From Pseudoclavibacter endophyticus (GTDB lineage: Bacteria > Actinomycetota > Actinomycetes > Actinomycetales > Microbacteriaceae): a DNA stretch of 64,000 nt. Positions 8,269-49,296 of the stretch are shown piece by piece (the first letter of the stretch is position 1; every line of letters starts with the position of its first letter). The notes under the pieces were generated by a model. The model saw nothing but the letters and a program-made list of their open reading frames with translations, ran no database searches and was not told where the DNA came from. The stretch lies in the NCBI RefSeq assembly GCF_008831085.1, contig NZ_WBJY01000001.1:1984001-2048000 (forward strand), given 5' to 3'. Both the position numbers and the translations under genes were made by a program.

Positions 8269-8394
8269 ACCGTTGTCTCCTTGTTTTCCCTAGTCGTTTA
8301 CCCGAGTCGGTGGTCTGCCGAGTCGCCGCGCCGTCCGGACGCGACCACGATATTGCGTGCCTTCGACATCACTCCGCCGCGGCGCATCCACGCC

Positions 8395-11988: not shown

Positions 11989-12059
11989 CGCCGAGCCGGC
12001 GGCATTCCACCCGGGGCGCCGACCAGCTGCGTCAACGGGGCCGGGTGTTTTCGGGGCTC

Positions 12060-12090
12060 ACTCTACTGGCCACCTGTCTCAGAGGATCAA
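12060..12090 (-). promoter_or_regulatory. Candidate promoter of the tubulin-like/vWA operon
   Basis: On the minus strand, TTGATC (12,090-12,085) and TAGAGT (12,065-12,060) are separated by 19 bp. The -10 fits the actinobacterial TANNNT pattern, and the element lies about 75 bp upstream of the first gene of the operon. Long spacing makes this tentative. Confidence 0.35.
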
Positions 12091-12139
12091 CGGTTGCGGC
12101 CCATTCATGCTTCAGGATGACCATGCGGATGAGGGGCGC

Positions 12140-13099: not shown

Positions 13100-13142
13100 C
13101 GGCGACCCTCCTCTCGTCGCACGCGGGCGGCGCAGAGTCTCC

Positions 13143-19159: not shown

Positions 19160-19861
19160 TCATGGCCACGACGGTTCCTCGGCGTGGGCGATGAAGAGTT
19201 CCCGCACCTCGCATCCTGACGGCTGGGAGAGGGCGAACAGCACCGCGTTGGCAACGTTCTCCGGGTCGTTGAGCTGCGAGTCGTCGTGGGGCTTGTACTG
19301 CTCGGTCCGATCGTCGAAGAACCGCGTCTTCATCCCTCCGGGGATGAGCTGGGTGACGCCGACCTCGCCCTTGAGTTCGGCCGCGAGCGCCTGGGTGAAC
19401 CCGAGCACGCCGAACTTGGAGGCGCAGTAGGCGGTGGCGTCCGAGACACCCTTCAGCGCGAGCGTGGAGGCCACCGTGATCACGCGCCCCCTCGAGGCCT
19501 TGAGCGCCGGCAACGCCGCGCGGACCGTCGAGACGGTGCCGAAGAGGTTCACCCGCACGACGAGCTCCCAGTCGTCGACCGAGACGTCCTCGAGGCGACC
19601 ACAGCGGTCGATCCCCGCAGCGGTCACCACGGCATCGAGCCCGCCCGCTTCCGCGGCGGCGCGGGTCACGGCATCGGTGACCGCCGCCGTGTCCGCGACG
19701 TCCACCTCGTAGGCGGTCACGCCGACGAGCGTACTGATGTCGCGGTCCAGGACGATCGGGGTTCCGCCGCTGTCGCGTACCGCGGCCACGACCGCCGCGC
19801 CCAGGCCCGAGCCGCCGCCGGTGATCAGGACCCGGCCGATGCCGGTGGGCTGAGGGTTCAT
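19160..19861 (-). CDS. Short-chain dehydrogenase/reductase
   Basis: 233 residues, ATG 19,861 with AGAGGA 6-11 nt upstream. Rossmann motif LITGGGSGLG near the N-terminus, the conserved Asp in YEVDVADTAAV, TAAG in place of NNAG, catalytic Ser in TVASTLALKG and YCASK (YxxxK). This is a complete classical SDR, probably using NAD(P)H on a carbonyl or secondary alcohol. It diverges from the aldehyde dehydrogenase across 189 bp and sits at the edge of the glycan locus, so a role in modifying a sugar or lipid precursor is possible but not shown. Confidence 0.9.
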   Translation of the reverse strand: MNPQPTGIGRVLITGGGSGLGAAVVAAVRDSGGTPIVLDRDISTLVGVTAYEVDVADTAAVTDAVTRAAAEAGGLDAVVTAAGIDRCGRLEDVSVDDWELVVRVNLFGTVSTVRAALPALKASRGRVITVASTLALKGVSDATAYCASKFGVLGFTQALAAELKGEVGVTQLIPGGMKTRFFDDRTEQYKPHDDSQLNDPENVANAVLFALSQPSGCEVRELFIAHAEEPSWP

Positions 19862-19960
19862 GCAAAGTCCTCTCATCGAAAAACAACCACCACACGCACT
19901 CCCCGTTGCCGCCACGGACGGGCACCCGGGGCATGCCCAGGGGGGATCGCGTCCCGTCAG

Positions 19961-20009
19961 TATGCTCGACCGGGCGGGTGCGTCGCCTCCTGGCCGCTCG
20001 CCCGGGTCG
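19961..20009 (+). promoter_or_regulatory. Candidate -10 and 5'-UTR hairpin upstream of the aldehyde dehydrogenase
   Basis: TATGCT at 19,961-19,966 fits a -10 element. It is followed by a near-perfect inverted repeat: CGACCGGGCG (from 19,968) against CGCCCGGGTCG (ending 20,009), with one bulged base. The hairpin would form in an about 80-nt leader. There is no T-run, so it is not an obvious terminator. Confidence 0.35.
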
Positions 20010-20050
20010 TTCGTGACCGTCTCTTGCCATTCGACTGCGACAGGACATCC

Positions 20051-21442
20051 ATGACCACTGGAGCGCCCACGACATCCGAGATCACCGTGCTGAACCCCCA
20101 CGACGGCACGCTGGTCGGCTCGCTGCCCTGCGCGGGCGAGGACGAGATCCGCGGAGCCCTCACCGCGGCTCGTTCCGCGGCCAGCGACTGGGCCCGCACC
20201 GACCCAGAAGAGCGAGGCAGGATGCTCCGCGCCGCGGCTGAGGCGCTGGTGCAGCATGCAACGGAGCTCGCCGAGCTCAATACCCGGGAGACCGGCAAGC
20301 TCGCCCAGGAGGCACTCGGCGGGGTGATGGCGGGCGTCGGGACCCTCCGGCAATACGCAGAGCTCGGGCCGGTGCACCGAGGGCACAGCCTGCGCGGCGG
20401 CGTGCTGGCCGCCGACTGGACCGTGGCCGAGCCGCGCGGGGTCGTCGTGGCGCTCACGCCGTGGAACGATCCCGTGGCCGTCGCGGCCGGCCTGCTCGGT
20501 GCGGCCATCGTCACGGGCAACGCGGTGGTGCACAAGCCGAGCGAACGCTGCCCGCACACCGGTGCCCGACTCGGCGAGATCCTCGCGGAGGTGCTGCCGG
20601 AGGGTGTGCTCGTCACCGTCACGGGCGGCCCGGAGGCGGGGCGCCTGCTGACGCAGCTGCCCGAGGTCGATGCCGTCGCGCATGTCGGATCGAGCGCCAC
20701 CGGCCGCGCCATCGCCCTCGCGGCCGCCCAGACCGGCGCGCACGTGATCCGCGAGAACGGCGGCAACGACGCCCTCGTGATCGACGACGACGTCGATCCG
20801 GCGTGGGCCGCCGAGCAGGCCGCGATCGGGGCATTCACCAACGCCGGCCAGATCTGCACTTCCGTGGAGCGGGTCTACGTCCACCGGCAGATCGCCGAGC
20901 CCTTCCTGGAGGCGCTCGCCGCCGAGGCCCGTGCACGCAACAGGGATCGCGACACGATGCTGGCGCCGCTCGTCGACCGCCGCCTGCGCGAAACGGTGCA
21001 GGGGCACGTCGCCGCCGCCGTCGCCGACGGGGCCACCGTGCTCGAGGGCGGTGTGGTGCCCGACGGCCCGGGGTCGTTCTATCCGGCCACGGTGCTGCGC
21101 GACTGCACCGAGCGGATGCAGGTCATGCGCGAGGAGACGTTCGGTCCGGTCGCGCCGGTGGCGGTGGTCGAGAGCTTCGCCGAGGGCCTGCGACTCGCCG
21201 CCGCCGATCGCTATGGTCTGGCCGCGACGGTCCTCACGGGCCGCATCGCGCACGCCCAGCGCGCCGTCGCCGAACTCGCTGTTGGCACGGTCAAGATCAA
21301 CAACGTCTTCGGCGGCGCTCCGGGCGGTTCTGCGCAGCCGCGTCGCGACAGCGGTGCCGGGTTCGGGTACGGCCCCGAGCTGCTCGACGAAATGACGCAG
21401 GTCAAGGTCGTGCACGTCGAGATGCCGCCGGCCCGGGGGTGA
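20051..21442 (+). CDS. NAD(P)-dependent aldehyde dehydrogenase
   Basis: 463 residues from ATG 20,051, with AGGA 6-9 nt upstream; the long open frame before it overlaps the divergent SDR and is not coding. Family landmarks: ALTPWNDPV (cofactor-binding TPWN), VHKPSE, HVGSSATGR, catalytic Glu in RENGGNDA, catalytic Cys in NAGQICTSVERV and REETFGPVAPV. It oxidises an aldehyde to a carboxylate in the cytoplasm. Its stop codon overlaps the GTG start of the tandem glycosyltransferase, so the two are co-translated, tying it to glycan synthesis. The substrate is unknown. Confidence 0.92.
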   Translation: MTTGAPTTSEITVLNPHDGTLVGSLPCAGEDEIRGALTAARSAASDWARTDPEERGRMLRAAAEALVQHATELAELNTRETGKLAQEALGGVMAGVGTLRQYAELGPVHRGHSLRGGVLAADWTVAEPRGVVVALTPWNDPVAVAAGLLGAAIVTGNAVVHKPSERCPHTGARLGEILAEVLPEGVLVTVTGGPEAGRLLTQLPEVDAVAHVGSSATGRAIALAAAQTGAHVIRENGGNDALVIDDDVDPAWAAEQAAIGAFTNAGQICTSVERVYVHRQIAEPFLEALAAEARARNRDRDTMLAPLVDRRLRETVQGHVAAAVADGATVLEGGVVPDGPGSFYPATVLRDCTERMQVMREETFGPVAPVAVVESFAEGLRLAAADRYGLAATVLTGRIAHAQRAVAELAVGTVKINNVFGGAPGGSAQPRRDSGAGFGYGPELLDEMTQVKVVHVEMPPARG

Positions 21443-23271
21443 CGGTGACGACGGAATCGACACAGGCGCCGGCGGGTTCTTCGACCCGAGGCGCACGGAC
21501 GACGGTGGTCATCGCTACCCGGAACCGTCGGGCGGAGCTCCTCCAGCACCTCAGCCGCCACGAGGCGCCGGTGATCGTCGTCGACAACGCCTCCACCGAC
21601 GGGTCACCCGAGGCGGTGGAAGCCGCGTACCCCGAGGTGAGGGTGGTGCGACTGCGCCGCAACGTGGGCGCCGTCGGGCGCACGATCGGTGCGCGGCTCG
21701 CGGCGACCGACTACGTCGCCTTCGCCGATGATGACTCGTGGTGGGCGCCCGGAGCCCTCGCGGCCGCGGAGGACCTGCTCGATGGCCACGCCGGCGTGGG
21801 GCTGCTCGCCGCGTCGATCGCGGTCGGCCCCGAGGAACGTCCTGACCCCATCAACGCCGTCCTCGCCGACTCGCCGCTCGGCCCGTCCCGGTCCGGCATC
21901 GGCCCGCGGCTGCTGGGGTTCGTGGCCTGCGCGGCGATCGTCCGCCGGTCTGCCTTCCTCGCCGTCGGCGGCTTCGACACCGTCGTGCGCTTTCCCGGTG
22001 AGGAGGAGCGGCTTGCGCTCGACCTCGCCGAGGCCGATTGGGAGATGGTCTATGCGCCCCAGCTGCTCGTGCACCACCACCCGTCAACGCATCGCGAGCC
22101 GGGCGAGACGCGTCAGCGGGAGATGCTCCGCAGCGGCCTACTGACCGCCGTCATGCGGCGCCCGTGGGACGTCGTGGCCGCGCGCGTCCGGAGCCTCTGG
22201 GCCGCCGGCTCGCGAGGCCGGCGCGCCCTCCTTTCGGCCCTCCCCCGGATTCCGGCGGCCGCGGTCAGGCGCCGGCCCGTTTCGGAGGCGGTCGAGGCGG
22301 ATCTCGCCCGGCTCGCATGGTCCGCGCGGGTCATGGGAGGTCCCGGAGACGACGGCACCGGGCCCTCGTTGAACCGTCGGGTCTCGGTCGTGATGATCAC
22401 CTACAACCGCCGGGAGGAGGCCCTTCAGTCGCTCGAGCGGCTCGTGGCCCTGCCGGACCGGCCGCCCGTCGTGGTCGTCGACAACGGCTCCACGGACGGG
22501 ACCGCGGAGGCCATCCGGGCACGCTTCGTCGGCGACGGCCAGGTGACGCTCGTGGCGAGCGAGGAGAACCTCGGCGCGGTCGGGCGCAACCTCGCCATGG
22601 AGCAGGTCAACACGGAGTTCGTCGCCTTCTGCGATGACGACACGTGGTGGGAGCCCGGTGCTCTCGACACGGCCGCCGACGTGCTTTCCGCGCATCCCAG
22701 GCTGGGCGTGCTCACCGGCAAGATCCTGGTGGAGCCGGGCAGCCGCGAGGACCCCATCAACGCGGAGCTGGAGCACTCCCCCGTCACCGGCCCCGACTGG
22801 CTGCCGGGCCCGGCGCTCGGAAGCTTCCTCGCCGGCGCCTCCGTCATGCGTGCCCGTGCGTTCCGTGACGTCGGTGGATTCAGTCGCCGACTGTGGCTGG
22901 GCGGCGAAGAGGAGCTGATGGCCGCCGACCTCGCAACGGCCGGGTGGGAGCTCTGCCACCTTCCCGACCTCGTCGTGCACCATCAGGCGTCGGCGGCCCG
23001 CGATCCGCACCTGCGTCGCCGCCACGGCCTCCGCAACACGCTGTGGTTCATCTGGTTGCGCCGACCGATCGGTGCGGCGATGCGCCGCACCCGTGATGTG
23101 CTGGCCACGGCGCCCCGTGACCGGATCACCGCGGCGGGCGTGGTCGATGCGCTCCGGGGCGCCGGATGGGTGCTGCGGGAACGACGAGTGCTGCCGCCGC
23201 ACGTCGAACGGCGCTTCCTCGCGCTCGAGGAGTCGCAGCGCAGCAGCAAGGCCCGGCAGTACGTCAGCTGA
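21439..23271 (+). CDS. Tandem-duplicated GT2 glycosyltransferase
   Basis: 610 residues starting at a GTG that overlaps the previous TGA (GTGA); a second GTG lies two codons later. The protein has two GT-A (GT2) domains in tandem. Domain 1 (about 15-260) has VVIATRNRRAEL, VDNASTDG, NVGAVGR and FADDDSWW. Domain 2 (about 315-570) has VVMITYNRREEAL, VDNGSTDG, NLGAVGR and FCDDDTWW. Each DDD cluster (near residues 95 and 397) should bind the metal and nucleotide sugar. Matching DPINAVLADSP and DPINAELEHSP blocks show internal duplication. It probably adds two sugars or alternates linkages. It converges with the minus-strand glycan operon 49 bp away. Confidence 0.9.
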   Translation: MTVTTESTQAPAGSSTRGARTTVVIATRNRRAELLQHLSRHEAPVIVVDNASTDGSPEAVEAAYPEVRVVRLRRNVGAVGRTIGARLAATDYVAFADDDSWWAPGALAAAEDLLDGHAGVGLLAASIAVGPEERPDPINAVLADSPLGPSRSGIGPRLLGFVACAAIVRRSAFLAVGGFDTVVRFPGEEERLALDLAEADWEMVYAPQLLVHHHPSTHREPGETRQREMLRSGLLTAVMRRPWDVVAARVRSLWAAGSRGRRALLSALPRIPAAAVRRRPVSEAVEADLARLAWSARVMGGPGDDGTGPSLNRRVSVVMITYNRREEALQSLERLVALPDRPPVVVVDNGSTDGTAEAIRARFVGDGQVTLVASEENLGAVGRNLAMEQVNTEFVAFCDDDTWWEPGALDTAADVLSAHPRLGVLTGKILVEPGSREDPINAELEHSPVTGPDWLPGPALGSFLAGASVMRARAFRDVGGFSRRLWLGGEEELMAADLATAGWELCHLPDLVVHHQASAARDPHLRRRHGLRNTLWFIWLRRPIGAAMRRTRDVLATAPRDRITAAGVVDALRGAGWVLRERRVLPPHVERRFLALEESQRSSKARQYVS

Positions 23272-23320
23272 CGGAACGGTCGCCGTTGCGCCGGCGGGGG
23301 CGACGGCGACCAGCGCCGCA

Positions 23321-24343
23321 TCACGAGTGACGGGCGGCCGTCTCCAGGTTGTCCTCGTCGACGGCCGTGCGGAACCACGCCACGGTGCGCTCCAGCCCCT
23401 CGGCCCAGGAGACCTCCGGTGACCAGTCCAGCACGCGCCCGGCCAACGAGGTGTCCGGGCGGCGGACCATAGGGTCGTCGACCGGACGGTCGATGAACTC
23501 GATCGGTGAATCGGACCCCGTCGCGGCCACCACGTCCTGGGCGATCTGCAGTACCGACAGCTCGTGCGGGTTGCCGATGTTCATCGGGCCGGTGTGCCCG
23601 TCCCAGGCCAGGGCGAGGATCCCGCGCACCAGGTCGGAGACGTAGCAGACCGAACGCGTCTGGGAGCCGTCGCCGGCGACGGTCAGCGGCTCTCCCGCCA
23701 GTGCCTGCCGGATGAAGGTGGGGATGGCGCGGCCGTCGTACGGCCGCATCCGGGGACCGAAGGTGTTGAAGATGCGCGCGATCGCCGTGTCGACGCCGTG
23801 CTGGCCGCGGTAGGCCACCGTCATGGCCTCCGCGAAGCGCTTGGCCTCGTCATAGACGCCCCGCGGTCCGACCGGGTTCACGTGACCCCAGTAGTCCTCG
23901 GGCTGGGGATGCACCTGCGGATCCCCGTAGACCTCCGAGGTGGAGGCGAGGACGAACCGGGCGCCCTTCTCCTTCGCCAGGCCGAGGGCGTGCAGCGTGC
24001 CGATCGAACCGACCTTGAGGGTCTGGATCGGCAGCTTCAGGTAGTCGATCGGCGAGGCGGGCGAGGCGAAGTGCAAGACGAGGTCGACGTCGCCGGGGAC
24101 GTGGACATAGTCGGTCACGTCGCACTGCACGAGCCGAAACCAGGGATCGCCGATCAGGTGCTCGATGTTGCCCGCGTTTCCGGTGAGGAAGTTGTCCAGG
24201 CAGACCACCTCGACCTCACGCCGGCGGAGCTCGGTGCAGAGGTGGCTGCCGAGGAAGCCCGCCCCGCCGGTGACCACGGCGCGGCGGATGCTCCGCTCGT
24301 TTCGCCCGGTGCCGGCGTCGATTGGTCGGTGCTCACGGTTCAC
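23321..24343 (-). CDS. UDP-glucuronate decarboxylase (UDP-xylose synthase)-like NAD-dependent epimerase/dehydratase
   Basis: 340 residues from GTG 24,343, with AAAGGA 8-13 nt upstream; it overlaps the preceding GT9 gene by 11 bp. [12 protein letters not shown] binds [32 protein letters not shown], the [13 protein letters not shown] block and GVYDEAKR (YxxxK) match the UXS/ArnA decarboxylase subgroup rather than generic epimerases. The likely reaction is UDP-glucuronate to UDP-xylose, providing a pentose donor for the cluster's transferases. It is the last gene of the nine-gene operon and convergent with the tandem GT2 gene. UDP-apiose or other UDP-sugar chemistry cannot be excluded. Confidence 0.88.
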
Positions 24344-25430
24344 GGTGCATCCTTTCGGGAACGGGTACGGCGGAGAGTTGTGCCTGTGCGGCGCGCACCA
24401 CCTCGTCGACGGAGATCCGGGCCAGCAGCGGGTCGAGGGCGTCGCCGTGCGGATCGCCCCACTCGCCGGCATCCGGATCGCCGTGCCAGAGCACGCTGTG
24501 CAGGCCGGCATCGATGGCCGGTCCCCACCGCGCCGGCGGAACGGGGCCGAACAGCACGACCGACGGAACGCACCATCCGGTGGCGAGATGGGCGACACCG
24601 GTGTCGGCGCTCAACACCAGGTCGGCGTCCCTCACCCGGTCGGACAGGTCGGACAGCCGGTAGCGCCCCGTGTGATCTTCGACGCCGGGGAGTCCCTCCG
24701 CCACCGCGCGGCCCAGGGGGGCCTCGGCGGCCGCACCGGTCACCACGACGCGGTGCCCTTCGTCCGAAAGAGCGGCCGACACCTGCCTCCAGCGGTCCAC
24801 GGGCCAGCGTCGCGACGCCGAAGCGGCCCCAGGGTGGACCAGCACGGTCGCGGATCCGGCTCGGCGTCGTCGTGCCTGATCGGCGACGGCGCGAGGCCGC
24901 AGTCGCAGGTCCTCCCGAGAGCACTCCGCCCCGGCGTCCCGGACCAGGCGGCACCAGCGGTCCACCTCGTGCTCGTCTTCTCGCCATTCCGGCCCGGGAT
25001 GCTGCGCTTCCGGCGCCGCGAACGCGACCAGCCGCGACGGACGGGCTGCTTGCAGCAGTCGGTGACTCGCCGGACCCCGGCCGTGCAGATTGACGGCCAC
25101 GAGCCCCGGTGAGACCTCTGGCAGTGGCACGAGCCCCGGCACGGCAAGCACCTCGTCGACGATGCCCAATTCGCGCAGCAACCCACCCGATGCGGTCGGC
25201 GCGGCCAGCACGAGACGACGGCCCGGATACCCTCGCCGCAGTCCCCGCAGGGCGGCGACGCCCGTCAGCGCATCGCCCAGTCCCAGGGCACGGAGCACCA
25301 GGATGTCGGCGGGGGCCAGCGCCGGCCCCGCCCGGTCGCCCCGGCCCTCCGCGGGCCCCGGCGCGTCTCCCAGGCGTCCGGCGGCGGCCAGCCAGTCGGC
25401 CGTGTACGGTTCGGGGCCCTCAGTGGGCAT
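24333..25430 (-). CDS. GT9 (heptosyltransferase-like) glycosyltransferase, copy A
   Basis: 365 residues with the GT-B layout of family 9: [20 protein letters not shown] near the N-terminus, [19 protein letters not shown] in the middle and [19 protein letters not shown] followed by [12 protein letters not shown] in the donor-binding half. GT9 enzymes transfer heptose from ADP-heptose, as LPS heptosyltransferases do; ADP-heptose enzymes sit directly upstream, which supports that donor. The start ATG 25,430 lies inside the end of the hldE-like gene (11-bp overlap), so translation is coupled. The first about 40 residues are poorly conserved, and a later start is possible. Confidence 0.88.
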
Positions 25431-26865
25431 CCACGTTTCCCGCGGTCATCCGCTCGACGATGCCGGTGGTGGAACGACCCGGCAGGTACGGCAGCACCTC
25501 CACGCGACCGCCCCAGCTCCGCACCAGGGGCGCCTCGGGCAGGTCTTCCGGACGGTAGTCGCCGCCCTTGACCCAGACCTCCGGGCGCAACCGGTCCAAC
25601 GCGGCGCGGGGATCATCCTCATGGAAGACGATCACGCCATCCACGTCGCGCAGGCCCATGAGCAGGGCCGCGCGGTCGAGCTGCCCGACCACCGGGCGCG
25701 CGGGACCCTTGAGCCGCCGGACCGAGTCGTCGGAGTTCAGGAGCACCACGAGCGTGTCGCCCAGGGCTCTCGCCTGGCGCAGCGTCTCCAGGTGCCCGGG
25801 GTGCAGGAGGTCGAAGCATCCTCCCGTGGCAACCACCGTGCCGCCGCGCGCCCTGGTGGCGGCGACGGTGTGGATGGCCGCCTCGTATGGGTCCTCCGAG
25901 AGCGGGCGCTCCGCGGTGCGTCGGGCCGCAGCGGGCCCCTCCGGGCCGATCCTGCCGTCCCGGAAGGCCGCGGCACCGCCGGCCTCCACCCACTGGGCGG
26001 CGGCCGCCACGGCCGCGCCGATCGACCGGTGCACCGACGCACCGGAGGCCAGCGAGACGGCGACGGCGGCCGCGAACCGGTCGCCGGCGCCGCAGGGATC
26101 CGACGAGTCGACCGGAACTGCCGGCAACAGCTCGGCAGTGCCCGTGGTGGCGAGGAAGGCCCCGCGAGCCCCGGCCGTCACCGCCACGGAGCGAGCGTCC
26201 CACCCCGTACGCAGCGCTTCTGCGAGCTCGTCATCCGCCGTCTCGTCGCGTGCGGGCCCGGCCGGGCCCATGGCGGCCAATGCGGCGCGGGCCTCCGCGA
26301 GATTCGGCGTGACCACGGTGCATCCAGGGACCGGGTTTCCGCCGCGGGGATGCGGGTCCCACACCACCGGCACCCGGACGGCGGCTTCCGCCAGTGCCCG
26401 CCGGACCACCGGGTCCCGGGTGACCCCGCCCCCGTAGTCGGAGACCAGGATGACCTCGGCACCGTCCAGTGCTGCGGACAGCCGCGCCGGGTCGACGTGC
26501 ACCGGCGCACCGGGCCCGCCCTCGTCAACGCGCACCAGGGTTTGGCCGGAGCTGCGGATGCGGGTCTTGGTGCGCGTGCCGCCCTCGTGCCCGAGGGCAT
26601 GGATCTCGATGCCCGCCAGGGCGGTCCGGATCTCCGCGGCGGCAGCGTCCTCGGCCAGGGGCGTCACCAGGACGACGTCGGGGGGCTCGCCCGGCAGTCC
26701 TCCGGCGCGGCCGCCGCACAACAGGGCGGCGAGCCCCGCGCCTCCGGGGCTCGCGTGGATGTGCTCGACGTCCACGACGGGCACGGGAGCGTCTGGGCTG
26801 AGCCGCTCCGATCTGCCGGTGACGTCGCGGTCCAGCATCACGTCCCCCACCACGACGATGCGCAC
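25420..26865 (-). CDS. hldE: Bifunctional D-beta-D-heptose 7-phosphate kinase / 1-phosphate adenylyltransferase (HldE-like)
   Basis: 481 residues, almost the length of E. coli HldE (477). Residues 1-310 form a PfkB/ribokinase kinase with VVGDVMLDRDVTG, ASPGGAGLAA, TPNLAEARAAL and the catalytic GAGD motif near 258 (DPCGAGDRFAAA). Residues 340-480 form a cytidylyltransferase-like domain with GGCFDLLHPGH (HxGH), LLNSDDSVRRLKG and VKGGDY. It phosphorylates heptose 7-phosphate at C1 and, after GmhB action, adds AMP to give ADP-heptose. GTG 26,865 is the best start: an AGGG lies 12 nt upstream and the preceding stop is 2 bp away. A neighbouring CTG is less likely. Confidence 0.93.
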   Translation of the reverse strand: MRIVVVGDVMLDRDVTGRSERLSPDAPVPVVDVEHIHASPGGAGLAALLCGGRAGGLPGEPPDVVLVTPLAEDAAAAEIRTALAGIEIHALGHEGGTRTKTRIRSSGQTLVRVDEGGPGAPVHVDPARLSAALDGAEVILVSDYGGGVTRDPVVRRALAEAAVRVPVVWDPHPRGGNPVPGCTVVTPNLAEARAALAAMGPAGPARDETADDELAEALRTGWDARSVAVTAGARGAFLATTGTAELLPAVPVDSSDPCGAGDRFAAAVAVSLASGASVHRSIGAAVAAAAQWVEAGGAAAFRDGRIGPEGPAAARRTAERPLSEDPYEAAIHTVAATRARGGTVVATGGCFDLLHPGHLETLRQARALGDTLVVLLNSDDSVRRLKGPARPVVGQLDRAALLMGLRDVDGVIVFHEDDPRAALDRLRPEVWVKGGDYRPEDLPEAPLVRSWGGRVEVLPYLPGRSTTGIVERMTAGNVDAH

Positions 26866-26867
26866 GT

Positions 26868-28724: not shown

Positions 28725-29680
28725 GCGACCACCCGCTCGGTCAAGGCGTCCCAGTCGGCGAGGAAGCGTTCGAGGCCGTACCGATCAAGGGCGTGGGCGC
28801 GCGCGGCCGCGCCGGCGTCGGCGGCCAGGCCCGGGTCGTCGAGCCACTGCCGGCCGCGGTGCTGCAACTCGGCGGGATCGTTGCTGAGCAGCCCGGCCGA
28901 GGCGGGCACGGCACGGGGGGCCTCCGTGGTCGACAGTGCGAGCACGGGCATCCCGAGGGTCATCGCCTCAAGCAGCGCCAATCCGAGGCTTGTCCACCGG
29001 TACGGGTGGAAGTACGCACGGTGCGCGGCCATCGCCCGGTGCAGCTCGGATTGCCGGAAGTTCTCGTGCAGGCGCCCGTCCAGCCAGGGCGCCGCATCCG
29101 CCAGCTGGTCCATGCCCATGCCGTAGACGTCGACGGGTAGTTCGCGGGAGAGCTTCAGCATCACGTCGGTGCCGGCGACGCGGGTGCGGCGCACCGGCTC
29201 GTTCACGACGACGGCGAGCGAGGGCCGCTCCCCCGTGTACAGGTGGCCGGGGTCGCAGATGCCGTGCTCGATGACGTCGGTGGGAGCCGTACCGGTGTCC
29301 CACATCATCCGGTTGAAGTGCGTGACGTGCACGACCGGAATCGCGGTCTGGTCGGCGTACGGATGGCGGGAGGCGGATGCCGTTCCGGTCGGCGCGTTGT
29401 GCTCCAGATACACGGCGGGCACGTCGATGCCGGCCCGCAGCCCGGTCCACGTCTCCAGGAGCTGTGCCTCGTGGGGCCGCTGCAGGATCACCAGGTCGGG
29501 GCGTTCTCCGGCCAATTCGCCGGCGGTCAGCTCGCGCGCCGACGCGGGCCAGTCCCACGTCTGGGCCCGGCCGCGGCCGTCGGGTCCTCGCTCGTCGTCC
29601 ATCGGCAGCAGATACTCGTGCCGACCCTGCACGAAGGCCGTCATCCAGGACCCGTGGACATGCCACATCAGGATTCTCAT
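28721..29680 (-). CDS. Glycosyltransferase (GT4-like, GT-B fold)
   Basis: 319 residues. ATG 29,680 has GGAGGGG 5 nt upstream and overlaps the preceding stop (ATGA). The N-terminal half is divergent (MRILMWHVHGSWMTAFVQG, then YLEHNAPTG). The C-terminal half has YFHPYRWTSLGLALLEAMTL, the usual family 4 donor-site block with its Glu, and ends with a typical helix. It is shorter than average, and the N-domain acceptor-binding part is atypical. The donor and acceptor are unknown. The neighbouring heptose and UDP-xylose genes are the obvious candidates for donor supply. Confidence 0.85.
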   Translation of the reverse strand: MRILMWHVHGSWMTAFVQGRHEYLLPMDDERGPDGRGRAQTWDWPASARELTAGELAGERPDLVILQRPHEAQLLETWTGLRAGIDVPAVYLEHNAPTGTASASRHPYADQTAIPVVHVTHFNRMMWDTGTAPTDVIEHGICDPGHLYTGERPSLAVVVNEPVRRTRVAGTDVMLKLSRELPVDVYGMGMDQLADAAPWLDGRLHENFRQSELHRAMAAHRAYFHPYRWTSLGLALLEAMTLGMPVLALSTTEAPRAVPASAGLLSNDPAELQHRGRQWLDDPGLAADAGAAARAHALDRYGLERFLADWDALTERVVA

Positions 29681-30786
29681 CTGTCCCCTCCGGGTGTGTG
29701 CAGGTGTCTGACGACGTCGTCGTCGGTGGATCGGGCGGCGACGGTTCGGCCGGCGAGCTCGGCGACCGCGGCGACCACCGCGGCCCCGCTGATCTCGCTC
29801 AGGCACGGATGGCCGGGCACCGGACATTCCCGGGCGCGGCTGTCCCGGCACGGCGCGCCCTGGTCGCCGAGCAGGCGAACCGGGACCCCGTACGGCCGCC
29901 AGCGTTCCGCCGGGACCACTGGCGAGAACAACGACACGACGGGCGTTCCGACGGCGGCCGAAAGGTGCGCCGGTCCGGTGTTGCCCACGACCGTGCAGTC
30001 CGCGGCCTCCAGTACGGCGGCGAGGCCGGCGAGGTCCGTGCTCCCGGCCAGGTCGAGCACCGTCGCGTCCGGGCATTCACGGCGAGCGCGCTCCACGGTC
30101 GCGGCGACCAGCTCGCGTTCGGACGAACCTCCCGTCAGGACGACGGCATGCCCGGCGGCGGCCAGCGCCGAGGCGAGCGAGCCGGCGTGCTCGGCCCGGA
30201 GGCCCCGCGCCGGAACTGAGGCGCCGGGGTGCAACACCACGTATCCCCGCGACCGCACCTCGACGGGCACGCGATCAGGCAGGGGCGGCAGTGGGCGCCG
30301 CACGTCCAGGCGAGGTCGATCCGGTCGCGGGGCACCCGCAGCGACGGCCGCTTCCAGGGCGGCCTCGACCTCGTGGCCGCCGCCGGGAGGGTCGGATCGC
30401 TTCAGCCGTACGTCGAGCAACGATCCGGGGTAGTCGACGCTCGTGCCCACGACGTGCGGGATGCCGGCCATTCTCGCCAGCAGGGCCACCGGCAGCGGGC
30501 TCTGGTGGAAGGACGTGAAGATCACGGCCTGGTCGTAGCCCCCATCACGCAGTCGTTCGATCAGCGAATGTACGGCTCGGGTGTCCACCGACGGCGGCCG
30601 GAGGCCAGACCAGGGTGCGTCGAACTCGAGGACAGCGTCGACGCCCGGCAGCAGCCGCGCGGCGGCCGCGCCGGAGGGTGAGGCGAGGAGGTCCACGGTG
30701 CCGATCCGCGACAGTGCGCGGATGGCGGGGCCGGTCAGCAGAACGTCGCCGTCGGAATCGAGTCGTACCGCCAGGATGCGCGTCAT
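29677..30786 (-). CDS. GT9 (heptosyltransferase-like) glycosyltransferase, copy B
   Basis: 369 residues beginning MTRILAVRLDSDGDVLLTGP, the classic family 9 N-terminus. VVLHPGASVPARGL and VVGNTGPAHLSAAVGTPVVS, followed by LFSPVVPAERW, are the donor-site motifs. It also has a Cys-containing C-terminal segment (CRDSRARECPVPGHPCL) found in many heptosyltransferase-like proteins. It starts within the stop of the previous gene (ATGA) and ends in the ATGA of the next. Two divergent GT9 enzymes in one operon suggest that at least two heptose residues, or two different acceptors, are used. Confidence 0.88.
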   Translation of the reverse strand: MTRILAVRLDSDGDVLLTGPAIRALSRIGTVDLLASPSGAAAARLLPGVDAVLEFDAPWSGLRPPSVDTRAVHSLIERLRDGGYDQAVIFTSFHQSPLPVALLARMAGIPHVVGTSVDYPGSLLDVRLKRSDPPGGGHEVEAALEAAVAAGAPRPDRPRLDVRRPLPPLPDRVPVEVRSRGYVVLHPGASVPARGLRAEHAGSLASALAAAGHAVVLTGGSSERELVAATVERARRECPDATVLDLAGSTDLAGLAAVLEAADCTVVGNTGPAHLSAAVGTPVVSLFSPVVPAERWRPYGVPVRLLGDQGAPCRDSRARECPVPGHPCLSEISGAAVVAAVAELAGRTVAARSTDDDVVRHLHTPGGDR

Positions 30787-32399
30787 ATGGATGACCGATC
30801 ACCGTCCCGGGGGCGGGACGGTGGCTGGGCGACGCCGCTCGCCCACGAGAGAACGAGCTCCACGGCCGTCGCCAGGTCGGGCGCGGTGACCGGGGCGTCC
30901 GCGATCTCTTCCTGGCGGGTCACGGGCGTCGGCACCAGCACCGAGCGGGCGCCGGCCGATTGCGCGGCCTCGACGTCCGCACCGATGTCGCCGATGACCA
31001 CGCACTCCTCCGGTCGCACGCCCAGGGCGTGGGCGGCGGCGAGCACCATGCCGGGCTGCGGTTTGCGGCAGGCGCAGTGCTCCGCCGGCCCGTGCGGGCA
31101 GATCTGCCACGAGTCGAAGGGCCCGAGGAGGTCATCCACCCGTGCGTTCACGGCGTCCACCTGATCGCGCGTGACGATTCCGCGCGCCACTCCGGACTGA
31201 TTCGTGATGACGGCGGTGCGCAAGCCCGCCGCCCGCACGCGCTGCACCAGCTCGCCCGCGCCGTCGACGGGCCGCACCTGTTGGGGATCGCCGTTGTAGG
31301 GGACGTCGTGGACGATCGTGCCGTCTCGGTCGAAGAGCACGGCCCGCGGGCGCACCGGCCACGGGCCGGTCGCCCGGTGCCGAAGCCAACCGCGCAGACG
31401 GTGCCACACCGCGACCGGCGGAATGGTCGCGCTGGTCATCGACATGCGGCGCAGTTCCGGGCGGAACTCCGGGTCGCCGGGCTGGGGGCCCGGTGCCATC
31501 CGCAGGCGCAGGAACCGTCCGTACAGCCCGGCCCACGCGAGCGCGCCGGCGCCGGCCAGGCGACCGGCACCGCGCCGTCCGGCCAGCCCGCCCAGGGTGC
31601 CCGCCACCGCGACGGCGGCGGCCACCGTCGTGGCCACGTGCCATCCGAATGCTCCTCCCGGCGCCCGGGCCAGTTCGCGCCACTGCGGGCCGTGGAGCCG
31701 GCGCATCAGTGCGTTGTCGGCGTTGCCGGCCTGAACGCGATGGCTCACCCAGTCGTCCGCCGGGCGAACGGGATGGAGGATGTGCCGGTTGCCGCGTTCG
31801 AGCCGGTATCCGGCGCGACGCACGCGGACGGCCAGGTCGGCGTCCTCGCGGTAGGCCCGCGGGAACCGCTCGTCGAATCCCCCGACCCTGTCGAGCGCGG
31901 ACCTGCGGTAGGCCATGTCTGCCGTGGCCCACTCGGCGTCCTGCAGCGAGGCCGTATTGCGTTCCCAGTCGGTTGGCCGGCGGCCCTCGGGCAGGGGAAC
32001 CACGATCCGGCCCTGGCTGGCTCCGGCCTCGGGCGGGCACGCCGCCAGATCAGCCGCGAGTTCCCGTGCCCACGTGGCGGGGAGCTCGACGTCGTCGTCG
32101 AGGAACGCGATCCACTCCACCGACGGGTCGATGGCGCGCCAGCCGCGGTTCCGGGCGGCGGCCGGCCCGCGACCGTAGCCGCGCACGACGCGCACGGGCG
32201 CGCCGCCCACGGCTGGCGTCAACGCGGCGAGTGGCGCTTCGCCCTCCGCGGGCGCACGTCGATCATCCACGATGACGATGTCGACCGGTCCCGGATGCCA
32301 TTCGTCGGTCGCCAGCGCGGCAATCGTGTCGAGGAGACGGTCCAGTGAGGGCCGGCCGACGGATGGGATGACGATGGCGAACGAGTGTTGCGTCCTCAT
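30783..32399 (-). CDS. GT2 glycosyltransferase fused to heptose-bisphosphate phosphatase (GmhB)
   Basis: 538 residues. Residues 1-250 are a GT2 transferase (FAIVIPSVGRPSL, VIVDDRRAP, FLDDDVELP, AYREDADLAVRV). A hydrophobic stretch at about 253-275 could dip into the membrane. Residues 350-515 are a HAD-IIIA phosphatase of the GmhB type: VLFDRDGTI (nucleophile Asp), ITNQSGVARG, the zinc-loop block with CPHGPAEHCACRKP and VIGDIGADVEAA. GmhB removes the C7 phosphate from heptose 1,7-bisphosphate between the two HldE steps. The start overlaps the carbamoyltransferase stop (ATGA). Both catalytic halves look intact. Confidence 0.92.
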   Translation of the reverse strand: MRTQHSFAIVIPSVGRPSLDRLLDTIAALATDEWHPGPVDIVIVDDRRAPAEGEAPLAALTPAVGGAPVRVVRGYGRGPAAARNRGWRAIDPSVEWIAFLDDDVELPATWARELAADLAACPPEAGASQGRIVVPLPEGRRPTDWERNTASLQDAEWATADMAYRRSALDRVGGFDERFPRAYREDADLAVRVRRAGYRLERGNRHILHPVRPADDWVSHRVQAGNADNALMRRLHGPQWRELARAPGGAFGWHVATTVAAAVAVAGTLGGLAGRRGAGRLAGAGALAWAGLYGRFLRLRMAPGPQPGDPEFRPELRRMSMTSATIPPVAVWHRLRGWLRHRATGPWPVRPRAVLFDRDGTIVHDVPYNGDPQQVRPVDGAGELVQRVRAAGLRTAVITNQSGVARGIVTRDQVDAVNARVDDLLGPFDSWQICPHGPAEHCACRKPQPGMVLAAAHALGVRPEECVVIGDIGADVEAAQSAGARSVLVPTPVTRQEEIADAPVTAPDLATAVELVLSWASGVAQPPSRPRDGDRSSI

Positions 32400-34036
32400 C
32401 GCGCGAAGAATCCCGCCCGGCGGACAAGGTGCGGTCCGAGCACCAGCGCGGCCACGGGTGCCGAGCCGAACAGTTCAAGGGCGTCACGGGGGTCGTCCAC
32501 CATGGGCCGTCCCGCCGTGTTGAGGCTGGTGTTGACGACCACGGGCACCCCGGTGCGCTCGCCGAACGCCCGGAGCAGGGCCGCGATGCCCGCATTCCCC
32601 TCATCGCTGACCGTCTGAATCCGGGCAGAGCCGTCCACGTGCGTGACGGCGGGAATGCGCTCCCGCCACTCCGGGAGCACCTCGTGCGTGAAGAGCATGT
32701 AGGGGCTCGGGATTGGGCCTCCGCGGAAGATCTCCGCGGCGCGCTCCTCGAGCACCATGGGGGCCACGGGTCGGAACTGCTCCCGGCCCTTGACGTCATT
32801 CAGCCGCTCGAGGTTCTCGGCGAGCATTGGATTCGCGATCAGGGAGCGGTGGCCGAGGGCCCGGGGGCCGAACTCGCTGCGGCCGTCGAACCAGGCGACG
32901 ACGCCGTTCTCTTCGAGGACCTCGGCGACCTCGCTGGCGAGCGCCTCCCGGGATCCGGGCGTCGTGAAGGGAACTTGCGCCGTGGTGAGCCACCTGGCCA
33001 GCTCGTCGTCGGTCCAGCTGCGCCCGAGGGCCGCCGTCGGCTCAGGATCGGCGAGATCGCCGTCCCGTTGAGCGAGGGTCAGGGCGGCGCCCAATGCGGT
33101 CCCGGAGTCTCCTGACGCGGGCTGCACCCAGACGTCGTCGAAGCCGGCCTCGCGCCAGATGCGGGAATTGGCGACGCAGTTCAGTGCCGTCCCGCCGGCC
33201 ATCGTGAGGACGCGCTGGCCGGTCTGCTCGCGCAGCCACCGGGCGAGCTCAACCAGGGTCTCTTCGACGACGCACTGGACGGAGGCGGCGAGGTCGGCGT
33301 GGGCACCGCCCCAGGTCCCGTCGTCGATGCGCCGGGGGGCGAACCGCTCCCACTCGGGCGCACGTGCCGTGAAGCCGCCGTCTCCGGTGGCGTGCACGAA
33401 CTGGCGCAGCTCGTCCACGAAACGGGGGGTGCCGTAGGAGGCCAGGGCCATGACCTTGAACTCGTCTGACGAGCGGAGGAAGCCGAGGTGGTCGGTGAGC
33501 GACTCGTAGACGAGTCCGAGGGAATCCGGAAGCTCCTGGCGCGCGAGGATGGTCAATTCCCCGTCCACGTACTGGCCGGCAAGGTGCGAGTGCCGCTCAC
33601 CGCGCCCATCGGAGACGAGAACCGCGCCGGTGCGGTACGGGCCGGCCAGACCGGCCGAGGCGGCGTGCGCGACGTGGTGCTCGACGTAGGACACCTTCGA
33701 CGGGTCCAGACCGGGAAGTGCCTCGGCGATGAAGCCGGGGGCGCGACGGACGTAATCCAGCCGGATGTGGTCGTACGGGTCATCGGGGATCTCCGCCGCG
33801 ATCGCCGGGTCGAAGGAATACCCGACCCCGTCGAGCTCATCGGGGCTCACGCCGGCTTCGGCCAATGCCCAGCGCATGGACTGCTCCGGCAGCTCCCACG
33901 CCGAGAAGGGCACTGGCCGCTTCCCGTGCTTGCGTCGCGAGAACCGCTCCTCCTCGGAGGCGGCCACGACCTTGCCGTCGAGCACTACGACCGCGGCGGG
34001 GTCATGGAACGTTGCATTGATACCCAAGTAGCGCAC
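32396..34036 (-). CDS. NodU/CmcH-type O-carbamoyltransferase
   Basis: 546 residues. YLGINATFHDPAA at the N-terminus, VEHHVAHAASAG (metal-binding HHxxH, near residue 115), SDGRGE, FKVMALASYG, GGTALNCVANS and the C-terminal GRSEFGPRALGHRS with VNTSLNTAGRP are the family signature. The enzyme makes carbamoyl-adenylate from carbamoyl phosphate and ATP, then carbamoylates a hydroxyl, usually on a sugar. The start was set at GTG 34,036 (VRYLGINA); GTG 34,054 is an alternative and neither has a clear RBS. It lies 55 bp downstream of the pyruvyl-transferase-like gene. Carbamoylated heptose is a plausible product but unproven. Confidence 0.92.
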   Translation of the reverse strand: MRYLGINATFHDPAAVVVLDGKVVAASEEERFSRRKHGKRPVPFSAWELPEQSMRWALAEAGVSPDELDGVGYSFDPAIAAEIPDDPYDHIRLDYVRRAPGFIAEALPGLDPSKVSYVEHHVAHAASAGLAGPYRTGAVLVSDGRGERHSHLAGQYVDGELTILARQELPDSLGLVYESLTDHLGFLRSSDEFKVMALASYGTPRFVDELRQFVHATGDGGFTARAPEWERFAPRRIDDGTWGGAHADLAASVQCVVEETLVELARWLREQTGQRVLTMAGGTALNCVANSRIWREAGFDDVWVQPASGDSGTALGAALTLAQRDGDLADPEPTAALGRSWTDDELARWLTTAQVPFTTPGSREALASEVAEVLEENGVVAWFDGRSEFGPRALGHRSLIANPMLAENLERLNDVKGREQFRPVAPMVLEERAAEIFRGGPIPSPYMLFTHEVLPEWRERIPAVTHVDGSARIQTVSDEGNAGIAALLRAFGERTGVPVVVNTSLNTAGRPMVDDPRDALELFGSAPVAALVLGPHLVRRAGFFAR

Positions 34037-34091
34037 CGGGTCAGTCTTACACACGGTGGTCTCGACGAATCCGAGGGTGCGACACGACGTG

Positions 34092-35006
34092 TCAGCGCGC
34101 CACCAGACAGTCGAGCAGCTCCTCCAAGGCGCCCTGGACCAGCGCACCCGGGTCCAGTTGTGACGACGCACGGCTCGCCGCAGCTCGCCCATCCGCGAGG
34201 CACCACTCGAAGTGCGCGTGCAGGCTCGCCTCGCTGACGGCATCGGCCGCCAGCACGGCGGGCCAGCCCAGGGCCCGCGCCTGCGCGGTCACCTTCCCTC
34301 CGCCGTCCACGGGATCGAGCGCGAGGGCCGGCACGCCGGATCTCAGGGCGAGGACCAGGCCGTGCATGCGCATGGTGACCACCGCGTCGAGTCGACGGAT
34401 GACCGACTGCAGCTGTTCCGGCGTCGCGGGCAGGCGCCAGTCTCGCGGGTCGAGCCGGGTGTCCAGATCCAGGCGGGCGGCGTCGAACCCGGTCAGCCAG
34501 TGCCGGACGGTGTCGATCAGCGCATCGTGCCGCCGACGGGGCCCGTACTCCTGTTGGCCGGCGGTCAGGAAGACCCCGATCACGGGAGGGAGATCGTCGG
34601 CCGATGCAAGGGGTGCGACAGCGGCCAAATCGGGGCGGGGCTCGGAGTGCGGGTGGTCTCGGGCGATGACCCGGTGGAACCCCGCCACCACCGGGTCGGC
34701 CGGGTTGATGACGCTCACGCCGATGGCGATCCTGGTGCAGTGCGCGAAGCGGGCGTGCAGCTCGGCGATGGCGGTTCCAGTGGCCGGTCCGCAGGTGAAG
34801 ACCATATGCGTGTACGCCTGGGCATCGATGTCGTCAAGGGTCAGTCCCCCTGGCGGGCGCATGACCGGGCTCCAGGCGGTTTCGTACCGGATGCCGGCAT
34901 CCGTGAGGGCGGCGCCCACGGTGCGCATAGCCAGCACGTCCCCGGCCGTGGCCTCCCCGTGTAGAACGGACGGCCACCCGAGCAGGAGTACTCGGCGGCC
35001 GCTCAC
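34092..35006 (-). CDS. Polysaccharide pyruvyl transferase family protein
   Basis: 304 residues from GTG 35,006, which overlaps the stop of a short upstream ORF (GTGA) and has no RBS of its own. The recognisable part is the C-terminal VVTMRMHGLVLALRSGVPAL block, the hallmark of the PS_pyruv_trans (CsaB/WcaK) family, preceded by GVFLTAGQQEYGPRRR. These enzymes add a pyruvate ketal to sugars of cell-wall polymers, which can then hold S-layer proteins in Gram-positives. It is the first long gene of the operon. The N-terminal half is divergent, so the activity is not certain. Confidence 0.85.
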   Translation of the reverse strand: MSGRRVLLLGWPSVLHGEATAGDVLAMRTVGAALTDAGIRYETAWSPVMRPPGGLTLDDIDAQAYTHMVFTCGPATGTAIAELHARFAHCTRIAIGVSVINPADPVVAGFHRVIARDHPHSEPRPDLAAVAPLASADDLPPVIGVFLTAGQQEYGPRRRHDALIDTVRHWLTGFDAARLDLDTRLDPRDWRLPATPEQLQSVIRRLDAVVTMRMHGLVLALRSGVPALALDPVDGGGKVTAQARALGWPAVLAADAVSEASLHAHFEWCLADGRAAASRASSQLDPGALVQGALEELLDCLVAR

Positions 35007-35059
35007 GGGCGAACGCCGGAAACGGGAGTGGACAGGGCTGCGCCAACGTCGATTCGCAC
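35003..35059 (-). CDS. Putative leaderless leader peptide of the glycan operon (18 aa)
   Basis: A GTG at 35,059 lies exactly 6 nt after TACGTT, the leaderless-promoter spacing seen at other genes here. It opens an 18-codon frame (MRIDVGAALSTPVSGVRP) whose TGA overlaps the GTG of the pyruvyl-transferase-like gene as GTGA. The next gene lacks an RBS, so reinitiation or coupling from this ORF would explain its translation. The alternative is that the ORF is chance. No regulatory codon run or attenuator hairpin was seen. Confidence 0.4.
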   Translation of the reverse strand: MRIDVGAALSTPVSGVRP

Positions 35060-35065
35060 GCCCCC

Positions 35066-35071
35066 AACGTA
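35066..35071 (-). promoter_or_regulatory. -10 element of the glycan operon
   Basis: TACGTT on the minus strand, 6 nt before the leader GTG. The divergent methyltransferase promoter (TAGGCT at 35,126-35,131) lies about 55 bp away, so the two transcripts start within one short shared region. No clear -35 was found for either. Confidence 0.5.
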
Positions 35072-35137
35072 GCGATGGAACGGGGGCGGCGAGACCACAC
35101 GGAAGTCTGTGGCGCCGGTCGGCGTTAGGCTCCCGGC

Positions 35138-35812
35138 GTGAGCACGCATGCCGTCGGAGCCGCCTACGATGCCCGTGCCGACGACTACGTCGAGTTGCTC
35201 GGCGATGTCGCCCTGCTCTCGCCCCTCGATCGTGCCACCATCGCGGAATGGGGCGGCGGGATCCCCGGGGCCGTGCTCGACGCGGGGTGCGGTCCAGGGC
35301 ACTGGGCCGACGAGCTCAGCAGGACGCGCCCTCCGGGTGTGCGCGCCACCTTCCCGCAGCCGGCACGCGCGGTCGTCTGCGTCGACGCCTCGCGGCGCTT
35401 CGTCGACGCCGCGCGCGAGCGATTCCCGCACCTGGACGTCCGCGTCGGCGACCTGGCCGCGCTCCCCGTCGGCGACGCCTCGGTCGCCGGCGTTCTCGCG
35501 TGGTACTCGGTCATCCACACAGTCCCCGACGAGCTCGGGGCCGTCTTCGCCGAGTTCGCTCGCGTGCTCGCGCCGGGCGGCTCGGTCCTGCTTGGCTTCG
35601 TCGACGGCGAGCCCGCTGCGCCGTTCGACCACGCCGTCGCCGCGGCGTGGTCGTGGCGTGCCGAGTCGCTCGCCGAGCGACTCGCGCCCCACGGGCTCGA
35701 GGTCACGCGGTCGTCGACACGCCACGACCCCGGCGCGCGCCCGCACGGCGAGCTCGTCGCGGTCCGGCCACCGCTTCGATCCCGCGCGCAGCCCTCGCGA
35801 GATCAGGGCTGA
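35138..35812 (+). CDS. Class I SAM-dependent methyltransferase
   Basis: 224 residues from GTG 35,138. TAGGCT ends 6 nt upstream with no RBS, so it is probably leaderless. The SAM-binding motif I is [16 protein letters not shown], motif II is [11 protein letters not shown] and motif IV is [15 protein letters not shown], followed by [11 protein letters not shown]. This is the UbiE/type-11 subgroup of small-molecule methylases. The substrate is unknown. The end overlaps the convergent ABC ATPase gene by 10 bp. Location next to the glycan operon does not show a link, because it is transcribed away from it. Confidence 0.88.
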
Positions 35813-37002: not shown

Positions 37003-37105
37003 GATTGCGGTACTCCTCGGGGGGTCTGGGACGAAATCGGAATCGCCGGATGCGCCTGGGGCGGTAATCCCGGTGCCGCTGGCTTCAGGGTCGGTGCGAC
37101 GCGGG

Positions 37106-37143
37106 CCCCGCCCTCCGCGCCTGTTCGGGCGCGGAGGGCGGGG
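37106..37143 (-). terminator. Strong GC hairpin between the binding-protein and ATPase genes
   Basis: A perfect 16-bp stem: CCCCGCCCTCCGCGCC (37,106-37,121) pairs with GGCGCGGAGGGCGGGG (37,128-37,143) around a 6-nt loop. It begins just past the binding-protein stop codon. There is no T-tract on either side. It may be an intrinsic terminator or attenuator of actinobacterial type, or an mRNA-stabilising 3' end that raises binding-protein levels over the ATPase. Confidence 0.75.
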
Positions 37144-37150
37144 GGTCGCG

Positions 37151-38482: not shown

Positions 38483-38547
38483 GTGCGTCCTTTCGGTGGA
38501 GCGGGTCGGGTCGACGGAGCTTCGGTGATGAGAGGTTGCGGCGACGG

Positions 38548-49268: not shown

Positions 49269-49296
49269 GCCGACCAGCGTGACCGATCTTGGTGCG

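Follow-up and report, generated by a model that had tools for sequence, protein, structure and literature searches.

A cwg-type locus of Pseudoclavibacter endophyticus predicted to feed heptose into a carbamoylated envelope glycan

Introduction

What might an actinobacterium without the lipopolysaccharide (LPS) pathway build from activated heptose? The question is raised by a group of sugar-activating and sugar-transferring genes at 19160-35006 of a 64,000-nucleotide stretch of the Pseudoclavibacter endophyticus genome (contig NZ_WBJY01000001.1, positions 1984001-2048000; genome of 3.26 Mb, completeness 97.8%), which was analysed as a whole and is called the window here. The reading favoured, at a probability of about 0.62, is that the locus is of the same type as the Streptomyces cwg operon, and that ADP-D,D-heptose, perhaps replaced or joined by a CDP or UDP form, feeds a carbamoylated, xylose-containing envelope glycan.

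The cwg operon is one of the two first-described targets of sigma-E, the envelope-stress sigma factor, and the portions of the literature available to us describe its product no further than as a predicted cell wall glycan. Searches of the open-licence literature turned up no heptose structure from an actinobacterial wall and no wall analysis of such a strain. Reading cwg as a pathway for a heptose, xylose and carbamoyl glycan across Actinomycetota would make the product chemically testable and highlights an enzyme linked to it. The association of that enzyme, a short-chain dehydrogenase (SDR), with HldE loci and the mosaic ancestry of the operon relative to the SDR and its neighbouring aldehyde dehydrogenase (ALDH) are new.

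A predicted ADP-heptose route without LPS

Nine minus-strand genes at 23321-35006, overlapping or at most 55 bp apart, look like a single transcription unit. They are read in the order pyruvyltransferase-like gene, carbamoyltransferase (CarbT), GT2+GmhB, GT9b, GTx, GT4+GmhA, HldE, GT9a and UDP-xylose synthase (UXS), where GT stands for glycosyltransferase; past UXS follow a tandem GT2 protein and ALDH on the plus strand and then SDR on the minus strand. An earlier note on this DNA had taken 19160..35060 as one locus, which holds for the nine-gene operon and less well for its left part, where SDR, ALDH and the tandem GT2 gene lie outside the operon; the SDR and ALDH, the less explained part of that span, had been passed over. 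The genes, with the matches that identify them, are as follows.

19160-19876 (start possibly 19861), minus strand: SDR, classical short-chain dehydrogenase (PF00106, 7.1e-39)
20051-21442, plus strand: ALDH, divergent from SDR (PF00171, 3e-115)
21505-23271, plus strand: tandem GT2 glycosyltransferase (PF00535 in two stretches)
23321-24343, minus strand: UXS, UDP-glucuronate decarboxylase (human UXS1 2b69, 1e-105; best UDP-glucose epimerase, 1e-36)
24333-25430, minus strand: GT9a, heptosyltransferase-like GT9 (PF01075, 4.2e-21)
25420-26865, minus strand: HldE, heptose-7-phosphate kinase and heptose-1-phosphate nucleotidyltransferase (NF008454, 3e-84, below cut-off; PDB 5x9q, 8.6e-32, and 4e84, 1.3e-16)
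26868-28712, minus strand: GT4 of the MshA/sucrose-phosphate-synthase-like kind fused to GmhA (PF00534, 1e-37; PF13580, 7.9e-25; GmhA structure 1tk9, 7.6e-45)
28721-29680, minus strand: GTx, short GT-B (GT4-like) glycosyltransferase (weak Pfam matches; AlphaFold2 pLDDT 90.4)
29677-30786, minus strand: GT9b, heptosyltransferase-like GT9 (PF01075, 8.1e-26)
30783-32399, minus strand: GT2 fused to GmhB, heptose-1,7-bisphosphate phosphatase (PF00535, 6.3e-11; NF006506, 2.9e-33, below cut-off; 4pnh, 2.2e-19)
32396-34036, minus strand: CarbT, O-carbamoyltransferase of the NodU/TobZ/GdmN type (PF16861, 3.7e-63; PF02543, 3.2e-50; 7xb6, 5.1e-84)
34092-35006 (longest open reading frame, ORF; caller start 34937), minus strand: polysaccharide pyruvyl transferase-like protein (PF04230, 4.1e-9 over 38 residues)

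The ORFs 19160-21496 (778 amino acids as a whole), 21604-22080, 22138-23202 and 35003-35746 (minus) were rejected as genes, frame composition and homology favouring the genes listed.

Pfam and NCBIfam searches bore out the enzymes named in the earlier note: GmhA, HldE and GmhB are all encoded, by domain and motif though below equivalog cut-offs, and so are two GT9 enzymes, UXS, CarbT and a weak relative of the pyruvyl transferases. GmhA carries GNGGSAAEAQHFTAEL and QEAHLVLLH, HldE carries DPCGAGD and GCFDLLHPGH, and GmhB carries DRDGT and CPHGPAEHCACRKP, which we take to be the catalytic and metal-binding stretches. Solved relatives of the window enzymes are a heptose 7-phosphate kinase (4e84), phosphoheptose isomerases and a D,D-heptose 1,7-bisphosphate phosphatase, together with 5x9q, titled a putative cytidylyltransferase and presumably HldC. 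The domains of GmhA, HldE kinase, GmhB and HldE nucleotidyltransferase are all present with their catalytic motifs, and LpxC was not found in the genome, so that no lipid A pathway was recognised; the locus is predicted, as had been claimed, to encode a complete ADP-heptose route without LPS. GmhA, HldE, GmhB and GT9 enzymes are common to the window and to the ADP-heptose pathway of Gram-negative LPS (GmhA, HldE, GmhB, HldD; WaaC/WaaF), whereas HldD and LpxC are missing from this genome and the product would not be LPS.

The best HldD match in the genome scored 108.5 bits against a cut-off of 274.6, and none of 296 Actinomycetota genomes held an HldD above cut-off; among 14 controls, E. coli and Caulobacter were positive. 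From this epimerase evidence the D,D form is expected, in agreement with the earlier note, and SDR and ALDH could modify its 'D,D only'.

The nucleotide of the donor may vary. According to the available parts of PMC11573728 and PMC11461863, Tang et al. linked an arginine at position 5 of (F/L)XXGRSTT to the use of CTP and UTP, an arginine that, per the commentary PMC11461863, is not strictly required for promiscuity. The window HldE reads YLPGRSTT, with arginine at position 5 and tyrosine in place of F/L at position 1 of this STTR5 motif, which predicts CDP- or UDP-heptose as a possible product. The residue before STT in 39 listed first-type HldE proteins was Arg in 24, His in 3 and Tyr in 1, with no match to the pattern in 11.

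Correspondence with the Streptomyces cwg operon

In the available text of PMC5839063, cwg of S. coelicolor comprises 12 genes, SCO6179-SCO6190, of which cwgB, C, E, G and J are labelled transferases, cwgD a dehydratase, cwgH a phosphoheptose isomerase and cwgI a bifunctional synthase/transferase; the part of PMC6767563 available describes an operon that depends in part on sigma-E, is induced by vancomycin and has a cell wall glycan as its predicted product. For comparison, 10 Streptomyces loci (including L090, L092, L093 and L099) were fetched. Locus L092 comprises exactly 12 consecutive genes, UXS-CarbT-GT2-GmhB-GT9b-GTx-GT4-GmhA-HldE-GT9a-GT2-GT2, with Pfam domains as expected and unrelated genes on either side, and all eight published labels (B-E and G-J), to the extent that the source was available, fit its positions, D most loosely ('dehydratase' against GmhB, which is HisB-related).

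The window holds all 12 enzyme families of L092 in nine genes, the tandem GT2 gene among them, three pairs being fused. The core order CarbT-GT2-GmhB-GT9b-GTx-GT4-GmhA-HldE-GT9a is identical over its nine steps; UXS and the two terminal GT2 parts have changed place. The fusions in the window are GT2+GmhB, GT4+GmhA and GT2+GT2. UXS stands last and not first, and the GT2 pair, whose tandem protein is the counterpart of the two separate GT2 genes ending L092, lies on the opposite strand; SDR, ALDH and the pyruvyltransferase-like gene are additions, the last also occurring near L090 and L093. This match suggests that the window locus is cwg-type and that cwg-type loci are heptose glycan pathways.

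Distribution across Actinomycetota

Of 296 sampled Actinomycetota genomes, 35 encode HldE-like proteins (E<=1e-40), the window's genome being one of them. The impression left by the earlier note, that ADP-heptose is exceptional outside Gram-negatives save for a few antibiotics, is not supported. In ten of the 35, the matches are only distant (35-42% identical) or partial. Vertebrate ALPK1 senses nucleoside diphosphate (NDP) heptoses, and on these counts a minority of Gram-positive actinobacteria can be expected to make such compounds. In a draw of 199 genomes from the window's own family, 121 had some match to HldE at E<=0.001, although a large share of these matches are short and probably hit other kinases or nucleotidyltransferases, and 25 (own included) had one at E<=1e-100; 24 of 61 Streptomyces genomes, the genus being assigned by way of a Streptomyces protein 95% identical, had a match at E<=1e-60. 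A protein search gave at least 7,994 HldE matches at E<=1e-30 (7,994 of 7,998 candidates scored).

For each locus up to 20 kb of sequence around HldE was fetched, and its genes were called with a codon-usage caller trained on the window. Outside the window the short genes and start positions that it gives may be in error, and in the window itself SDR escaped it. Fifty-one loci chosen for having HldE, the window included, were scored, a count that omits the distant HldE locus L053, where nothing of the set but GmhA and a GmhB-like gene accompanies HldE. The gene set recurred as GT4m (50 loci), GmhA (50), GT9b (48), GTx (48), GmhB (44), GT9a (40, at a loose threshold), CarbT (30) and UXS (21). 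Fusions of GT2+GmhB (18 loci), GT4+GmhA (6) and GT9b+GmhB (3) tie the transferases to the heptose enzymes; GmhA+HldE was fused once. Since the set recurs in other families of the phylum, it is not a chance assembly, and judged by its genes the cluster belongs to a locus type that is widespread in, and ordinary for, Actinomycetota.

Some loci depart from this plan. An additional GT4 gene (398 amino acids, ~30% identical to GT4m), not present in the window, heads the operon in both near relatives, L103 (13820-15016) and L104 (456-1652). On plasmid pFRL3 of Streptomyces sp. FR1, the stretch 2938-14084 of the fetched locus combines HldE with radical SAM, P450, serine hydroxymethyltransferase, GT9, carbamoyltransferase and GDSL esterase genes, which would be a different, natural-product-like use of heptose.

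An oxidoreductase tied to HldE

SDR (E<=1e-40) was found in 20 of 296 phylum genomes, in a draw taken to be the same as that searched for HldE because size and handles agree: 20 of the 35 genomes with HldE and 0 of the 261 others (Fisher 5.7e-22, kinship ignored). The positive genomes fall in 14 families, and in all 19 other than the window's no more than 200 bp separate the SDR match from that of HldE. Across the 51-locus set SDR adjoins HldE in 33 of the 33 loci where it was scored, the window, L024 and L025 not being scored for it there. All of 16 aligned SDRs share Ser137, Tyr150 and Lys154, and all except one share Asn110; we assume these residues to be the active site. Median identity to the window copy is 62.8% for SDR (35 loci, two of them at 37-38% and probably not orthologues) and 48.9% for HldE (38 loci, two of them at 34-36% and of a second or distant kind). 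Among the matches listed (best 25 NCBIfam models) SDR reaches no cut-off, and it may serve a dedicated oxidoreductase step of heptose loci to which family models assign no role.

The transferases and decorating enzymes

By the scores listed above, UXS is clearly a UDP-glucuronate decarboxylase (1e-105 to human UXS1, against 1e-36 to UDP-glucose epimerase), and in four relatives with UXS a UDP-glucose dehydrogenase gene lies inside the cluster. The top PDB matches of the AlphaFold2 model of GTx are PimB', BshA and other GT4 enzymes; at just 13-18% identity, these matches do not fix its acceptor. The pyruvyltransferase-like protein scored 29 bits against a CsaB cut-off of 213, its PF04230 match spans 38 residues only, and a profile search gave no PDB match. 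Its model (predicted TM-score 0.57), which omits 29 N-terminal residues of the longest ORF, gave a poor fold match, with TM-scores of 0.30-0.39 (query length) to the listed GT-B enzymes. The family occurs in Citricoccus, Kocuria and Streptomyces among others.

Proposed pathway and alternatives

With the order of reactions taken from known families, GmhA, HldE and GmhB would make activated D,D-heptose, which GT9a and GT9b would transfer. The GT4, GT4-like and GT2 enzymes would add other sugars, one of them xylose from UXS, and CarbT and, in this lineage, perhaps the pyruvyltransferase would decorate the glycan. SDR, with ALDH, may act as an additional oxidoreductase, its substrate being either the heptose donor or the product that already carries heptose. 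Assembly would be cytoplasmic, and the product would reach the cell envelope through an exporter coded elsewhere.

Several observations weigh against this pathway. No heptose enzyme attains its NCBIfam equivalog cut-off (HldE 283 of 521 bits, GmhA 161 of 209, GmhB 115 of 178), neither GT9a nor GT9b attains the heptosyltransferase cut-off, and GT9b has the motif GNTGPAH where GT9a reads DTGVAH. The likeness to cwg rests on published labels and on other Streptomyces loci, not on the sequences of SCO6179-SCO6190, and all 12 genes were present in only 2 of the 10 Streptomyces loci (L090 and L092); the other eight hold fewer, some being without GT9a or GT2 genes and L099 consisting of a GmhA-HldE fusion only. 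Searched with a simple pattern, the start of the operon showed no sigma-E-like site (the pattern matched 3 times across the window, where 5.7 matches were expected), and the sigma factors of this genus may differ. SDR was scored in no Streptomyces locus and is absent genome-wide, at E<=1e-40, from the Streptomyces genome G443, so not every such locus requires it; 14 further HldE genomes are without SDR at this threshold, some of them fragmentary or with a distant HldE only. Nine of the ten genomes with only distant or partial HldE matches are among these 15, which makes the negative set a mixed one. Finally, in the scanned genes, which make up most but not all of those in the window, Pfam and NCBIfam matches named neither a polymerase nor a flippase or ligase, in line with the earlier note, and we recognised no polymerase, exporter or carrier-priming transferase there, which leaves room for an intracellular or secreted small glycoconjugate; a major facilitator superfamily (MFS) transporter gene is present at 17157-18476.

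The alternative that survives best, which we nevertheless consider improbable, is that the locus makes not an envelope glycan but a small natural product, either secreted or kept inside the cell, such as a septacidin-like compound or some other metabolite that bears sugars. The solved relatives of CarbT include antibiotic enzymes (novobiocin, GdmN, TobZ), and the Streptomyces plasmid cluster pairs HldE with P450 and radical SAM genes. The available parts of PMC11461863 and PMC11573728 describe septacidin as a heptose-using antibiotic of Streptomyces fimbriatus, in which NDP-heptose is made by an actinomycete, as is predicted for the window. Yet no natural-product core was recognised in the window cluster (the comparison with septacidin was made without its gene sequences), the set recurs in many families (14 for the SDR-positive genomes alone), better suiting an envelope function, and the matching Streptomyces operon is under envelope-stress control according to the part of PMC6767563 available.

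Protein glycosylation, with the GT9 enzymes acting as protein heptosyltransferases in the manner of Aah/TibC and not in glycan synthesis, is less credible again. GT9a does match the Aah/TibC model weakly (9.5e-05), and a simple hydropathy scan that found little or no membrane-spanning sequence in the cluster enzymes would suit such a role, but the GT9a score is 21.5 against a cut-off of 200, the cluster has no adhesin-like partner, and seven transferase domains with a carbamoyltransferase suggest an oligosaccharide. Least likely of all is that the kinase/nucleotidyltransferase and GT9 enzymes act on a sugar other than heptose: the sub-cut-off scores of HldE, GmhA and GmhB and the resemblance of GTx to enzymes with many donor types would allow it, but three distinct heptose-pathway enzymes co-occur with intact motifs and their solved relatives are heptose-pathway proteins.

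Mosaic origin of the locus

Trees of HldE and SDR were built with care and those of GT4m, GTx, GT9b and ALDH quickly; structure alignment A4 was built from 22 of 120 listed proteins. The named proteins closest to the window HldE come from a Micrococcus metagenome-assembled genome (MAG; 80% over the best-matching segment) and from Citricoccus zhacaiensis (77%), both Micrococcaceae, which would point to Micrococcaceae as the window's own family too. In the HldE tree, which includes 7 of 240 listed proteins, the window groups with Citricoccus, Kocuria, Tersicoccus and Kineococcus proteins and with L054 and L058 (support 100/98), and 17 loci of the window's own family form a separate set with L061 (100/100). 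Uniting the own-family set with the window, Citricoccus, Kocuria and Tersicoccus rows was rejected by the approximately unbiased (AU) test (p-AU 0.0014), in a group picked by the author from identities that contains 6 of those 7 proteins. Citricoccus and, we assume, Kocuria and Tersicoccus are placed by current taxonomy in the same family as the window. After the Citricoccus-type rows, L058 or L054 is nearest for GT4m, GTx and GT9b.

The window's family, by these groupings, holds two heptose locus types. The second, GT9b-GTx-GT4-GmhA-HldE-SDR ... ALDH-second HldE-GT2, shares its core with the window and has the closest SDR and ALDH to the window's; it differs in having no carbamoyltransferase or UXS scored and, in most cases, in carrying a second HldE absent from the window. 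SDR of the window falls within the second-type set (100/100), paired with L061 (92/88, not starred), and ALDH also pairs with L061 (support 99, in a tree with only two rows outside the main group, one flagged long). Support for the second-type set as a single clade is just 28 in the GTx tree. Among three genomes of the same genus, one (G073) has the second locus type (L046), and two (G136 and G188) have no HldE match.

The second HldE paralogue (in L034, L041, L043, L052, L061 and others) is 34-41% identical to the window's HldE and sits beside ALDH, often with GT2, some kb from the first HldE. That it might be kinase-dead was rejected, the alignment showing GAGD intact and Pfam finding both domains.

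The window thus appears to be a mosaic, with operon genes of the Kocuria/Kineococcus type and an SDR and ALDH of the second locus type. This would fit a history in which an older heptose locus gave way to a cwg-type operon and the SDR-ALDH pair was left in place; which way events ran is conjectural here. A divergent SDR-ALDH pair, 79-90% identical, is found in C. zhacaiensis and the Micrococcus MAG within ~3 kb of the operon on its opposite side; being on the other side in both near relatives, the pair seems to have stayed linked while its place changed.

As if worth keeping, an SDR-ALDH pair whose closest kin are in another locus type stands beside a cwg-type operon, which hints at a tentative and rather doubtful extension of the heptose glycan pathway. 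SDR, joined in this family by ALDH, might replace HldD and turn D,D-heptose, either while still bound to its nucleotide or once on the glycan, into a different heptose such as a C6 epimer or an oxidised form, an actinobacterial branch of its own within the carbamoylated envelope glycan.

Neighbouring genes

A methyltransferase gene at 35138-35812 (plus strand) is divergent from the operon, and an ABC sugar-importer-like set (ATPase, solute-binding protein, permease) occupies 35803-40373 (minus strand); neither is known to belong to the locus. Further off, large minus-strand genes at 1-11259 encode proteins of 645+ and 905 amino acids without a Pfam match and, in the same row, a 1191-amino-acid Tubulin_2 protein (PF13809, 1.4e-38) and a 954-amino-acid protein with a weak VWA domain, a tubulin-like/vWA operon. 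At 47895-56258 (minus strand) lie genes for two luciferase-like monooxygenases, YkoF, a double-ABC protein and a CbiQ-like T component of an energy-coupling factor (ECF) transporter that scored under its cut-off, a set that to us resembles a thiamine-precursor uptake locus.

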